The notes beneath the pieces were generated by a model. That model worked only from the letters and a program-made list of their open reading frames with translations, made no database searches and was not told the origin of the DNA. A stretch of DNA of 13,594 nt from contig CAKRTY010000011.1 in assembly GCA_934402125.1 (NCBI GenBank), forward strand, positions 1-13,594, given 5' to 3'. Below are positions 6,291-12,623 of the stretch, piece by piece. Positions within the stretch are counted from its first letter, which is position 1. Every line of letters starts with the position of its first letter. Source of the DNA: an uncultured Anaerosacchariphilus sp. (lineage in GTDB: Bacteria; Bacillota; Clostridia; Lachnospirales; Lachnospiraceae). The translations under genes were made by a program, and so were the position numbers.

Positions 6291-6330
6291 AAAAAAACAG
6301 CCCGGAGCGTTTGACTCCGAGCTGTTTTTT
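6291..6330. terminator. Bidirectional intrinsic terminator between convergent genes
   Basis: ACAGC (6297-6301) pairs with GCTGT (6321-6325) and CGGAG (6303-6307) with CTCCG (6315-6319), with one C/A mismatch between the blocks and a 7-base loop. An A run (6291-6297) and a T run (6325-6330) flank it, so it works in both directions. It serves the M23 peptidase on the plus strand and the ACT-domain gene on the minus strand, whose stop codon overlaps its edge. Confidence 0.93.
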
Positions 6331-6934: not shown

Positions 6935-8185
6935 ATGGAAGAATTAAAAGCATTATTGGAAAAATATTTAAATGAAAATCTGGAGCTGATTACTTTAAGC
7001 GCGCCGCGAAAGGGCCGGGAGGAAGGAAAGGCCCGGATCCGTCCGGTGCTGCTGCGGGAGGAGCTGAAATTCCAGACAGAGATTTTCCGGGGTCCCAAGG
7101 CCTTTCACGAAAATCTGGATAAAGCCGAGGCGGCCGAGCGGATTGCAGAACTGATGACAGACGTGTTCTGCCAGCTTCAGCTGCAGGCGGCCGCAGGCCA
7201 GGTGACCGCGCTGGTGAGCAAGAAGGGCAAGGTCACGGTAAAAGAAAAGCGCCAGCCAGGGAAACAGCTGCCCGGTGACGAAAAGAAAAGCGTAAAACGG
7301 GAGGAGCTTGCCCATAATAAGAAAAAGCGCTATCTGCTGGAGGAGGGACGTCCGGTTCCTTTTTTAGTGGACCTGGGCGTCATGACCCCTGAGGGAAAGA
7401 TTGTCCACGCCCGTTACGATAAATTCCGTCAGATCAATCGTTTCCTGGAATTTGTGGAGGATATTCTTCCGGCGCTTCCGAAAGGCAGGGAGCTGACCAT
7501 TCTGGATTTCGGCTGTGGAAAATCCTACCTGACCTTCGCAATTTATTATTATCTGCGGGAGTGTCAGGGGCTGGATGTGCGGATCATCGGCCTGGATCTG
7601 AAGGAAGATGTGATTCGCAAATGCAGCGAACTCAGCCACAAATATGGTTATGATAAACTAACCTTCCTGCAGGGGGACATTGCCGGATACGAGGGCTGCA
7701 CGCAGGTAGACATGGTCGTGACGCTGCATGCCTGCGATACGGCTACGGATTACGCCCTTTACAAGGCGGTAAAATGGGGCGCCAGCGTCATTTTGTCGGT
7801 CCCCTGCTGTCAGCACGAGCTGAATCGGCAGATAGAAAATGAAACCCTGGCTCCGATTCTGAAATATGGCCTGTTAAAGGAGCGTATCGCGGCACTGGCT
7901 ACGGACGGCCTCAGGGCAGAGCTTCTGGAGCAGCAGGGCTACGAGACACAGCTTCTGGAATTTATCGACATGGAGCATACGCCGAAAAATATTCTGATTC
8001 GCGCAGTGAAACGGAAGAACGAAAAGAAAGCGGGAGCGGCGTCGGAGGCGGCCTTTGAGGCCTGCGCGGAAGCCTTACATGCAAATCTGACATTGGAGAA
8101 GCTTCTGAATGCGGGTACGTCTCCGGTAGAGAGCTACCGCGCCAGACGCAGAAATACCGAAAACGCGAAAGGAGAGAGCCGGTGA
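6935..8185 (+). CDS. SAM-dependent methyltransferase, METTL25/Methyltransf_32-like
   Basis: Class I Rossmann-fold methyltransferase of 416 residues. Motif I is LDFGCGKSYL with Asp191-Gly193-Gly195; an acidic end of strand 2 follows in IIGLDL; HACDTATD is at 265-272; and PCCQHEL at 290-296 is the marker of the Methyltransf_32 group that includes eukaryotic METTL25/RRNAD1-like and bacterial proteins of unknown substrate. The N-terminal 1-130 is a separate region ending in a Lys/Arg-rich stretch (about 95-130), suggestive of nucleic acid contact, so an RNA substrate is possible but inferred. The tail (about 360-416) is Ala/Glu-rich. There is no clear RBS before the ATG at 6935, and stop codons at 6923 and 6929 in the same frame exclude an earlier start. 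Its TGA overlaps the GTG of the next gene (GTGA), implying coupled expression. Confidence 0.85.
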   Translation: MEELKALLEKYLNENLELITLSAPRKGREEGKARIRPVLLREELKFQTEIFRGPKAFHENLDKAEAAERIAELMTDVFCQLQLQAAAGQVTALVSKKGKVTVKEKRQPGKQLPGDEKKSVKREELAHNKKKRYLLEEGRPVPFLVDLGVMTPEGKIVHARYDKFRQINRFLEFVEDILPALPKGRELTILDFGCGKSYLTFAIYYYLRECQGLDVRIIGLDLKEDVIRKCSELSHKYGYDKLTFLQGDIAGYEGCTQVDMVVTLHACDTATDYALYKAVKWGASVILSVPCCQHELNRQIENETLAPILKYGLLKERIAALATDGLRAELLEQQGYETQLLEFIDMEHTPKNILIRAVKRKNEKKAGAASEAAFEACAEALHANLTLEKLLNAGTSPVESYRARRRNTENAKGESR

Positions 8186-10768: not shown

Positions 10769-11884
10769 ATGGACAAGAGAATCCGAACACTGGCGAAAAA
10801 TCTGGTAAATTATTCCTGTAAGGTACAGCCGGGCGATAACGTATACGTCCACTATACCGGCCCGTCCACGGAAGAGCTGGCGCGGCAGCTTATCAAAGAA
10901 GTGTACGCCGCAGGCGGACGGCCCTTTCCCCATTATACGAATCCGAAGGTCCAGCGGGAAATGCTGCTGGGCTGTACGGAGGAACAGCTGAAGCTGATGG
11001 CTGAAATCGACGCGGCGGAAATGTCGAAGATGGACTGCTACATCGGCGTGCGCGGCGGCGACAATGTGTCGGAGTATTCCGATGTTCCTTCAGAGAAAAT
11101 GCATCTTTATGAAACCCTGTACGCGACGCCGGTTCATCACAATATCCGGGTGCCGAAGACCCGGTGGGTAGTCTTACGCTATCCGAACGAATCCATGGCC
11201 CAGCTATCCGGCACCAGCACGGAGGCCTTCGAGGACTTTTATTTCGACGTCTGCAACCTGGATTATTCGAAGATGAGCGAGGCCATGAAGCCCCTGGTAG
11301 ACCTGATGAACCGCACGGACAAGGTGCGTCTGACGGCGAAGGGAACCGATTTGAGCTTTTCGATCAAGGATATTCCAGCCATCGCCTGCGACGGGCAGAT
11401 GAATATTCCGGACGGAGAAGTGTATACCGCACCGGTACGGGATTCCATAAACGGCGTCATCACCTATAATACGCCGTCCATTTGTCAGGGTACGACCTTT
11501 GAGAATGTCTGCCTGGAATTTGAGAATGGTAAAATCGTGAAGGCCACGGCCAACAATACAGAACGGCTGAATCAGATTCTGGATACGGACGAGGGAGCCC
11601 GCTATGTGGGCGAGTTCGCCATCGGCGTGAATCCCTATATCCTTCAGCCCATGAAAGATATCTTGTTTGATGAGAAAATCATGGGTTCCATTCACCTGAC
11701 TCCAGGCAATTGCTACGACGAAGCGCCTAACGGCAACGTCAGCGCCATTCACTGGGATCTGGTGCTGATTCAGCGGGAAGAATTCGGGGGCGGCGAGATC
11801 TGGTTCGACGACCGCCTGATCCGGAAAAATGGCCGCTTCGTAATTCCGGAGCTCGAGTGCCTGAACCCGGAGAAGCTGATATAA
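10769..11884 (+). CDS. M29-family metallo-aminopeptidase
   Basis: Cytoplasmic aminopeptidase of the M29 family (AmpS/PepS/aminopeptidase T type), releasing N-terminal residues from peptides with a two-metal site. Length 371 matches the family's usual 370-415. Candidate metal ligands sit where the family has them: Glu217 in PDGEVYTAP, Glu282 in VGEFAIGVNP, His309 in SIHLTPG, and His328/Asp330 in AIHWD. The N-terminal domain carries the typical VQPGDNVYVHYTGPS and the later RWVVLRYPNESMAQ segment. The ATG has a strong AGGAGG (10755-10760) 8 bases upstream. It begins 43 bases after the exported-protein gene with no terminator between, so it may share that transcript. Downstream there is no simple terminator, and its 3' untranslated region would include the palindromic element at 11919-12120. 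Confidence 0.92.
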   Translation: MDKRIRTLAKNLVNYSCKVQPGDNVYVHYTGPSTEELARQLIKEVYAAGGRPFPHYTNPKVQREMLLGCTEEQLKLMAEIDAAEMSKMDCYIGVRGGDNVSEYSDVPSEKMHLYETLYATPVHHNIRVPKTRWVVLRYPNESMAQLSGTSTEAFEDFYFDVCNLDYSKMSEAMKPLVDLMNRTDKVRLTAKGTDLSFSIKDIPAIACDGQMNIPDGEVYTAPVRDSINGVITYNTPSICQGTTFENVCLEFENGKIVKATANNTERLNQILDTDEGARYVGEFAIGVNPYILQPMKDILFDEKIMGSIHLTPGNCYDEAPNGNVSAIHWDLVLIQREEFGGGEIWFDDRLIRKNGRFVIPELECLNPEKLI

Positions 11885-11918
11885 GATAAATTATGCGTGG
11901 TGCTATTTTAGAAAAACA

Positions 11919-12120
11919 GCCCGGGAAAGGGAATGGGGTCCCCCTGCGGCGGCGTTCGTGAATTTTCCGAGCGTTTTGTACGCCCTGGCAGCATCCGAAG
12001 GAGGCACTGTCCGAGGCCCTTTAGGGCCGAGTTTGCCGATCGGGTGCGAATAAGCCGGGTGTACAAGACGCCGGAAAATTTGCGTTGCAGCCGCAGGGGG
12101 ACCCTTTCTCCTTCCCGGGC
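11919..12120 (+). ncRNA. 202-base four-way palindromic element, candidate structured RNA or MITE
   Basis: The ends GCCCGGG (11919-11925) and CCCGGGC (12114-12120) begin a long stem. Its strongest block is a perfect 15-bp inverted repeat, 11936-11950 with 12090-12104, and it continues inward through 11957-11985 with 12057-12084 and 11987-11989 with 12054-12056, roughly 60 pairs with a few bulges. The centre holds three small hairpins: 11991-12005, 12015-12028 (GGCCC, TTTA, GGGCC) and 12032-12050. Seven positions pair as G-U only in plus-strand RNA; one (11928/12111) favours the minus strand. That bias suggests selection on a plus-strand transcript, presumably read through from the aminopeptidase gene. 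In the minus direction the stem is followed by TGTTTTTC, so it could also end the convergent gene. No known RNA family is recognised and no clear target-site duplication is seen. Confidence 0.7.
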
Positions 12121-12127
12121 GTCCATC

Positions 12128-12394
12128 CTAATAATCCTCCTCGATCACCTGCACCTCCAGATAATCAAACGCAATCGAATCAATAAAGCTATCCTGATAA
12201 AACCGCACCTTTGCCGTCCGCTTAAAATCCTCGATACAGGACTCCAGCCAGATAGGTTTGCTCAGATCAAACTGATGACAGATCTCATCCAGCGCGTTAA
12301 AAATCTTGTGCGTCCGCGTTTCGTCCGAAAAATCCTCAACCACCATATCCTTTAACATATGATTACTCTTAAATTCCCTGGCCCAGATTCGCAT
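12128..12394 (-). CDS. Small conserved hypothetical protein
   Basis: An 88-residue cytoplasmic protein without a membrane segment or signal. It begins MRIWAREFKSNHMLKDMV and ends in an acidic tail (EVQVIEEDY). The middle is rich in aromatic, acidic and basic residues (THKIFNALDEICHQFDLSKP), compatible with a compact alpha/beta fold. I recall similar short proteins of unknown function in Clostridia but cannot name a family. The start is the ATG complementary to 12392-12394, because GGGAGG lies 5 bases upstream; a TTG six codons earlier would include the RBS in the coding sequence. A well-formed promoter precedes it. It diverges from the rpsF operon and converges on the palindromic element, whose edge lies 7 bases after the stop codon. 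Confidence 0.8.
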   Translation of the reverse strand: MRIWAREFKSNHMLKDMVVEDFSDETRTHKIFNALDEICHQFDLSKPIWLESCIEDFKRTAKVRFYQDSFIDSIAFDYLEVQVIEEDY

Positions 12395-12466
12395 AAAAAC
12401 CTCCCGTTTCAAAAATTATTTCTATAATAAAGAAAATAGATATCAAAACGATAACACAACACTTAG

Positions 12467-12495
12467 AGTATAAAGGCAGCCACCCTGTTTGTAAA
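12467..12495 (-). promoter_or_regulatory. Predicted sigma-A promoter of the small hypothetical gene
   Basis: On the minus strand TTTACA (12495-12490), exactly 17 bases, then TATACT (12472-12467); each hexamer matches the consensus at 5 of 6. The leader is about 65 bases and A/T-rich. Confidence 0.75.
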
Positions 12496-12538
12496 GAAAG
12501 AATGCCGGGAAAAACCTTGAAAAACTGCGAAAAAACCC

Positions 12539-12567
12539 TTGCTTTTGCGGAAAAATTATGTTATAGT
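12539..12567 (+). promoter_or_regulatory. Predicted promoter of the rpsF-ssb-rpsR operon
   Basis: TTGCTT (12539-12544), 17 bases, then TATAGT (12562-12567) with TGT before it, an extended -10. The start site would be near 12574, giving a leader of about 70 bases before rpsF. It is divergent from the minus-strand promoter at 12467-12495, with about 45 bases between them. Confidence 0.75.
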
Positions 12568-12595
12568 ATCACCTTGTGATATATTATTAAAATTC

Positions 12596-12623
12596 CTTGT
12601 TTCCCCCATAGTGAGGAAGCCAG
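12596..12623 (+). promoter_or_regulatory. Leader hairpin before rpsF, possible autoregulatory site
   Basis: CTTGTTTCC (12596-12604) pairs with GGAAGCCAG (12615-12623), eight of nine positions including one U-G, around a 10-base loop of CCCATAGTGA. It ends 8 bases before the rpsF ribosome binding site. In other bacteria the S6:S18 complex binds an rpsF leader structure with an exposed CCG; here the loop shows CCC but no CCG, so the role is uncertain. Confidence 0.45.

Follow-up and report, generated by a model that had tools for sequence, protein, structure and literature searches.

What is a palindrome of 202 bp doing between two genes that run towards each other? The window (the whole stretch of DNA analysed here, 13,594 nucleotides) holds such an element behind an M29-type aminopeptidase gene, and an earlier note on this DNA offered two answers: a structured RNA in the 3' region of the aminopeptidase transcript, or a MITE-like element that moves or acts through a folded RNA. 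We weigh these and other readings using folding, searches for copies and comparison with long-hairpin families in related genomes.

The palindrome and its fold

The palindrome (Table 1) is real and unusually long. Aligned over 11919-12120, its two arms form 64 Watson-Crick pairs and 8 wobbles, with 4 mismatches of other kinds and 9 columns containing gaps. The fold of 11910-12130 has an energy of -146.9 kcal/mol for the + strand (z -12.5) and -130.2 kcal/mol for the - strand (z -10.8), with 0 of 200 shuffles as good on either strand. These values bear out the large palindrome described in the earlier note, and the perfect 15-bp inverted repeat that it reported (11936-11950 with 12090-12104) is present. 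Among the hairpins listed for the window this one is the strongest, with 64 stem pairs by a stricter measure against at most 35 elsewhere, and 83 by a looser measure against at most 51 in the others (a looser-measure entry at 11940-12100 is the same hairpin and is not counted as a rival). The arms form terminal inverted repeats, 11921-11953 and 12087-12119 being 79% complementary, and the pairing reaches 11919/12120.

The minimum-energy fold of the element is a single unbranched stem with bulges. The note had drawn a cloverleaf in which one long stem closes three small hairpins; for positions 11985-12060, the core, no three-hairpin fold found is better than -26.8 kcal/mol, and the unbranched alternative reaches -34.3 kcal/mol. 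Because the apical part folds better unbranched, by 7.5 kcal/mol, a cloverleaf RNA is ruled out as the favoured fold and we drop the label.

Table 1. Features of the aminopeptidase gene end and the palindrome behind it (window coordinates).
Feature	Position	Strand	Basis
M29-type aminopeptidase gene	10769..11884	+	ORF; Pfam PF02073, E 1.6e-55
TGTTTTTCTAAA, U-tract-like, immediately beyond hairpin base	11907..11918	-	sequence
Imperfect palindrome, 202 bp	11919..12120	none assigned	arm alignment and folding; extent judged from pairing
Outer 5' arm, G+C rich, contains the perfect 15-bp part 11936-11950	11919..11950	+	arm alignment
Middle stem, 5' side	11951..11984	+	folding and arm alignment
Apical part: bulged stem with end GGCCC-TTTA-GGGCC; unbranched fold preferred	11985..12058	+	folding
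Middle stem, 3' side	12059..12089	+	folding and arm alignment
Outer 3' arm, complementary to 11919-11950	12090..12120	+	arm alignment
94-aa gene, convergent	12128..12412	-	ORF; no Pfam family matched

The wobble pairs of the stem are split by strand, seven forming G-U only in + strand RNA and one only in - strand RNA. Arm alignment reproduces the earlier 7:1 count exactly; it is statistically weak (two-sided binomial p = 0.07), and we take it as a hint.

The gene junction and the search for copies

The stop codon of the aminopeptidase gene (11882-11884) lies 34 nt ahead of the palindrome and that of the convergent 94-aa gene (12128-12130) only 7 nt from it. On the - strand only, the long stem is followed beyond its base by TGTTTTTCT. 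A standard terminator scan of 11700-12600 finds no ordinary terminator, and it does not call the palindrome itself because its loop limit is 8 nt.

Is the same junction occupied in relatives? The window's aminopeptidase is 82-84% identical to those of the four nearest relatives (L001-L004, from two Clostridia bacterium genomes, one Merdimonas sp. and one Lachnoclostridium sp.), and the 94-aa protein has 475 homologues, few of the best 120 carrying a source name, with names of Lachnospiraceae type. The gap between the convergent stops is 243 nt in the window, -4 (an overlap) in L001 and L004, 43 nt in L003 and 101 nt in L002. The palindrome is absent from this junction in all four relatives, which are other species with variable gaps, and their junctions have diverged too far from the window for an empty site to be read at single-base resolution. 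By eye, the flanks at 11918/12121 show no recognisable target-site duplication. The L002 junction has a short, strong hairpin of its own, to which the window element has no match. More widely, the element has no match at E 1 or better to 80 loci from relatives. The same place can hold other hairpins: of 36 Lachnospiraceae-type loci with at least 350 nt past the aminopeptidase match, one, L007, shows a long hairpin there among the best 120 entries of the fold scan, an unrelated one of 169 nt (7144-7312) behind its aminopeptidase stop (7114-7116). L027 has a long hairpin about 1 kb further on, away from the aminopeptidase-end site.

Counting copies in related genomes by sequence search, as the note had suggested, yields none: no second copy is seen in 13 related genomes, and the 16 genomes of the nearest genus give only two 28-29-bp matches (L081, L082), where local folds show no comparable palindrome. 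No relative appears among the matches listed for 397 family genomes with at most two candidates scored per genome, and negatives from such large samples are weak because so few candidates are scored in each. Plasmids and phages give no match, and four pattern scans of viral contigs give chance or coding-type matches only, the best of which (L380/L382, 83% over 35 bases) comes without such a palindrome. A covariance-model search of Rfam gives no match; the earlier note had likewise not recognised a known RNA class.

Long-hairpin families in related genomes

In a fold scan covering 200 kb of the congener G001, three hairpins measuring 161-226 nt turn up; 200 kb of G002, scanned in the same way, contain no hairpin judged comparable. 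Such scans also print coding-like stretches, so the real hairpins were picked by eye; those that define the families e264, e327, L007 and L027 below were then shown to be repeats by search. The family e264, found with one G001 hairpin as query, has matches in nine of the 16 genus genomes (G001, G003, G004, G014, G017, G018, G020, G024 and G025), with 36-60 matches in six of them, a count that includes second-strand matches of one copy, at most 40 candidates being scored per genome; L336 of G022 is a remote member. Among the matches listed for 299 sampled family genomes, at most two candidates being scored per genome, the only match is in G001 itself. We read 89 copies (L278-L306 and L393-L452), 29 from the genus search (L307 left out) and 60 from the matches listed for G001, G004 and G020.

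An e264 copy is about 210 bp long and built in layers. The outer stem is exactly 25 bp in 39 of the 89 copies; its mean identity between copies is 44%, and within a copy it is 97.3% Watson-Crick (2310 Watson-Crick pairs, 19 + 14 wobbles by strand, 32 other, 18 gaps). The middle stem is conserved, with 84% identity over the first 15 nt, recurring bulges and a mismatch column retained in 27 of 29 aligned copies, and the interior consists of an inner stem and a variable loop. The family leans to gene ends. Of the 59 copies that can be classified, 27 are convergent, 27 co-directional and five divergent (for the other 30, the stretch read lacks a clear gene to one side). The 165 gene pairs called by the same simple ORF rule over 200 kb of G001 divide into 23, 119 and 23, so that the convergent excess is 27/59 over 23/165 (p = 2e-6). 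The stop codon of the - strand neighbour is at most 40 nt away in 41 of 49 cases and that of the + strand neighbour in 13 of 51. These counts include close orthologues in G004 and G020; without G020 the copies are convergent in 22 of 44 cases (p = 1.5e-6), with the stop at most 40 nt away in 30/37 for the - and 11/40 for the + neighbour, and in G001 alone the figures are 6/15 convergent (p = 0.02) and 10/12 for the - neighbour. Beyond the base of the hairpin, a T-tract follows on the - strand in 18 of the 89 copies and on the + strand in one (15 and one of 65 without G020); since 71 copies are without the - strand tract, a terminator role is not general in e264. A Y1/RAYT transposase appears not to be the partner of e264: Y1_Tnp occurs in eight of the 16 genus genomes, yet there is none in e264-rich G004.

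How does an outer stem keep its pairing while its sequence turns over? We compare orthologous copies recognised by their flanks, 28 strict pairs in all. In the 15 pairs between the close genomes G004 and G020, 369 of 375 outer-stem columns are unchanged, six carry a single change and none a double one. Of the 13 distant strict pairs, three are dropped because one of the two copies pairs in register at under 21 of its 25 columns, and the remaining 10 show 47 double changes, all from Watson-Crick to Watson-Crick, and seven single changes, where 10.2 doubles are expected if the arms change independently; two loci enter twice (against G004 and against G020), and counting them once leaves 44 doubles and five singles, while 16 of the doubles come from the single pair L428-L452. 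Sixteen pairs matched by one flank, which overlap in the same way, add nine singles and 115 doubles (35.7 doubles expected), and here too every double leads from one Watson-Crick pair to another. A looser first count (61 of 64 pairs, some of them paralogues) gave 361 doubles and 50 singles. Close pairs show single changes only and distant pairs mostly double ones; therefore the arms seem to change one at a time, the second catching up with the first later. The intermediates have no steady strand preference, since six of the seven singles in distant strict pairs are G-T on the + strand and four of the six in close pairs are A-C. In published work, template switching is said to create stems and to repair them, whereas the route by point mutation would lead through G-U (PMC8794818, as excerpted). 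Because compensation in the outer stem is massive, nearly wobble-free and unbiased by strand (19:14), the data favour maintenance of the e264 arms at the DNA level, with selection for perfect pairing also possible and few intermediates sampled.

Related genomes carry other families of long hairpins as well. The hairpin e327 is about 270 bp long, multi-hairpin and TA-flanked (L327:18421-18690 and L368-L379), with 14 copies at 99-100% in G019; it matches in nine of the 16 genus genomes, diverged in the eight others. Of 12 loci read, 11 have TA next to both ends on the outside, and L379 has TA on the left only. TA flanks are a mark of IS630/Tc1-mariner MITEs, and e327 is plainly a recently multiplied, mobile MITE. 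In the same genome, L327:1353-1466 matches the pemK RNA of Rfam (RF02913) above the gathering score. The L007 hairpin, used as query in its own genome, gives 48 matches (second-strand matches of one copy included), and its family in G007 and G053 (L007:7144-7312, L161-L190 and L228-L257, also L222-L227) has a conserved apical core, GCGAATTTGCCGAGC ... GAGACTACAGGCTC ..., and a stem largely common to most copies, L225 and L227 having different, still complementary outer stems. Two G007 copies, L183 and L187, share an almost identical insert, a small inverted repeat of about 27 nt, on the 5' side of this core. The L027 family consists of A+T-rich long hairpins in G416 (L027:6803-7018 and L191-L220), with diverged matches in G418 and G417; 11 of 13 G416 copies have a + strand gene to their left. 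Microrna-type Rfam matches to this family are weak, below the gathering score, and were discounted. Placement is convergent in 12/30 copies in G007, 11/30 in G053 and 4/13 in G416, and divergent in 4, 2 and 0.

The strand bias of wobble pairs is not constant among these families: two are biased and two are not. Wobbles for + and - number 53:61 in e264 (29 copies) and 49:56 in G007 (30 copies), against 103:41 in G053 (30 copies) and 59:13 in G416 (11 copies); as distinct column pairs the figures are 24:25, 19:23, 22:12 and 26:12. Since the bias varies in this way, the 7:1 split of the window element is compatible with both kinds. The earlier argument that a neutral DNA palindrome should show no such bias is weakened by this comparison but not overturned: e264 compensation is nearly wobble-free and, in the outer stem, unbiased, as DNA-level maintenance predicts, and G053 and G416 show bias.

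Does the window element belong to any of these families? A profile search (nhmmer) with four families of the same build, e264 among them, gives no hit in it, and with pairing-preserving shuffles its likeness to six hairpins, including e264 and e327, stays at z of at most 1.6. Membership of e264 is rejected on the blank profile and on shuffle tests of z 1.4 (17 of 200 shuffles reach it) and z 1.8 (9 of 200), the element scoring 23.4 where the remote member L336 scores 46.7. A by-eye likeness between its middle stem and that of e264 (TTTTCC...GTACAC) failed the shuffle test. Membership of the L007, G053 and G416 families is rejected by profiles and shuffle tests, and of e327 by the pairwise shuffle test only, which finds no kinship. 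Without significant sequence kinship, e264 and the window element are nonetheless alike in length (about 210 against 202), in their place behind stop codons, in a long layered stem, and in a layout with the - strand stop close by (7 nt in the window) and, in some e264 copies, a T-tract-like sequence beyond the base on the - strand.

Readings of the window element

We consider it probable that the window element is a palindromic repeat of MITE-like type, specific to its lineage and serving as a hairpin at gene ends, whose palindrome is maintained at the level of DNA at least as much as at that of RNA; that it is itself repeated or mobile, and what its role is, we infer. Of the two earlier alternatives the MITE-like one is the better, because the element is absent from the junction in the nearest genomes and high-copy families of long hairpins populate related ones, e327 with its TA flanks and recent multiplication among them. 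The same proposal is held back by the lack of a second copy and of a recognised target-site duplication, and the absence from relatives' junctions could also reflect loss. A palindromic repeat would have settled, or grown, in the tail-to-tail gap between the aminopeptidase gene and the small convergent gene, so that transcripts of both genes would enter it and end in a very stable 3' hairpin. Such a hairpin may stop or slow read-through between the two genes, with the U-tract following on the - strand, and may shield or process the mRNA ends; the complementarity of the arms may be kept by template switching (in replication, one arm serving as template for its partner), by selection for pairing, or by both.

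Described repeats offer partial likenesses. By what it looks like, the closest described analogue in the excerpted sources is YPAL (RU-2), an intergenic palindromic repeat of about 168 bp, with no TA ends and not A+T rich, whose targets lie across or next to regions of dyad symmetry and which is reported as co-expressed with upstream genes (PMC2229807). We claim no membership, the likeness being one of description only: YPAL belongs to Yersinia and Erwinia, is multi-copy, is mobile by filled and empty sites, and has internal inverted repeats (PMC2229807). ERIC (IRU, RU-1) and Correia/NEMIS elements are described as small repeats whose transcripts contain long stem-loops; where ERIC sits at a gene 3' end it affects transcript levels, and RNase III cuts Correia/NEMIS transcripts. 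Both differ from the window element in having TA termini, where the window element has none, and in coming from other phyla (PMC2229807, PMC10969869). REP, Bor, Ype and Efa stem-loop repeats are described as clustering at gene 3' ends, with Bor repeats of 26-30 bp and Ype and Efa larger than REPs, against 202 bp here (PMC1590033); REPs are given as 20-40 bp (PMC3733652). Among the papers listed in a literature search over titles and abstract openings, with few subscription journals covered, none is on such families in Lachnospiraceae.

It is also conceivable, though unlikely, that the element is an oversized bidirectional terminator that was never mobile and arose where it stands, an ordinary terminator hairpin having been lengthened by template switching. 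The bidirectional intrinsic terminators of Firmicutes place a GC hairpin between convergent genes with a U-tract on one strand, and the window element differs from them in its 202 nt, its bulged three-part stem and its apical structure. An A-rich stretch facing the 3' uridines is described at terminators (PMC1590033, as excerpted). Growth in place agrees with the U-tract beyond the base on the - strand, with the blank terminator scan, with the short strong hairpin at the L002 junction and with template switching as a described source of stems (PMC8794818, as excerpted); against it, the L002 hairpin is unrelated to the window element by sequence, and the long bulged middle and apical parts come closer to the layered build of the repeat families.

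The structured-RNA alternative is the less likely of the earlier note's two. In its single-locus form the aminopeptidase transcript would yield a discrete RNA, in its 3' UTR or as an sRNA, under selection for the + strand fold, and we hold this to be quite improbable. The + strand fold is 17 kcal/mol more stable than the - strand fold, and the wobble split leans the same way; the unrelated G416 hairpins favour + strand wobbles 59:13 with a + strand gene on their left, and those of G053 lean similarly, so such hairpins may come under selection as RNA. The counter-evidence comprises the p of 0.07 for the window's split, the lack of bias in e264 and G007, the blank Rfam search, the lack of a homologue in the 16 genus genomes, where a conserved RNA would be expected, and the position of the palindrome, nearer to the - strand gene (7 against 34 nt). 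That the element is a functionless inverted duplication, arisen by chance or in decay, is very unlikely, even if the one known copy and the mismatches and gaps throughout the stem might speak for it, given that 0 of 200 shuffles are as stable and that e264, of the same build, keeps its pairing over species divergence.

Beyond the single locus, there is a broader proposal that we make tentatively and regard as rather doubtful: the element would belong to an undescribed class of gene-end palindromes in Lachnospiraceae in which the pairing of the long outer stem would be inherited rather than its sequence. The stem would be free to drift, its arms changing together almost without wobbles, and the element would act as folded DNA (a cruciform or single-strand hairpin), or one arm would continually be copied afresh from its partner, so that every gene has a hairpin of its own that repairs itself. 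If the comparisons made here were confirmed, gut-type Lachnospiraceae would carry several unrelated palindrome families of roughly 150-270 bp, the four examined for context leaning to gene ends and one further family having 14 near-identical copies in a genome; e264 orthologues would hold near-perfect pairing while their sequence turns over, and one clade could test whether stem compensation reflects RNA selection or hairpin-templated DNA copying. A microbiome RNA screen is described as having 250 palindromic candidates among 3161 (PMC8040213, as excerpted), and the wobble test would help to separate RNA from DNA palindromes in such screens.

Elsewhere in the window, at another convergent junction (6292-6330), a short hairpin (AAAAAACAGCCCGGAG / CTCCGAGCTGTTTTTT) pairs almost perfectly and resembles a terminator; beside the 202-nt palindrome it is an ordinary case.
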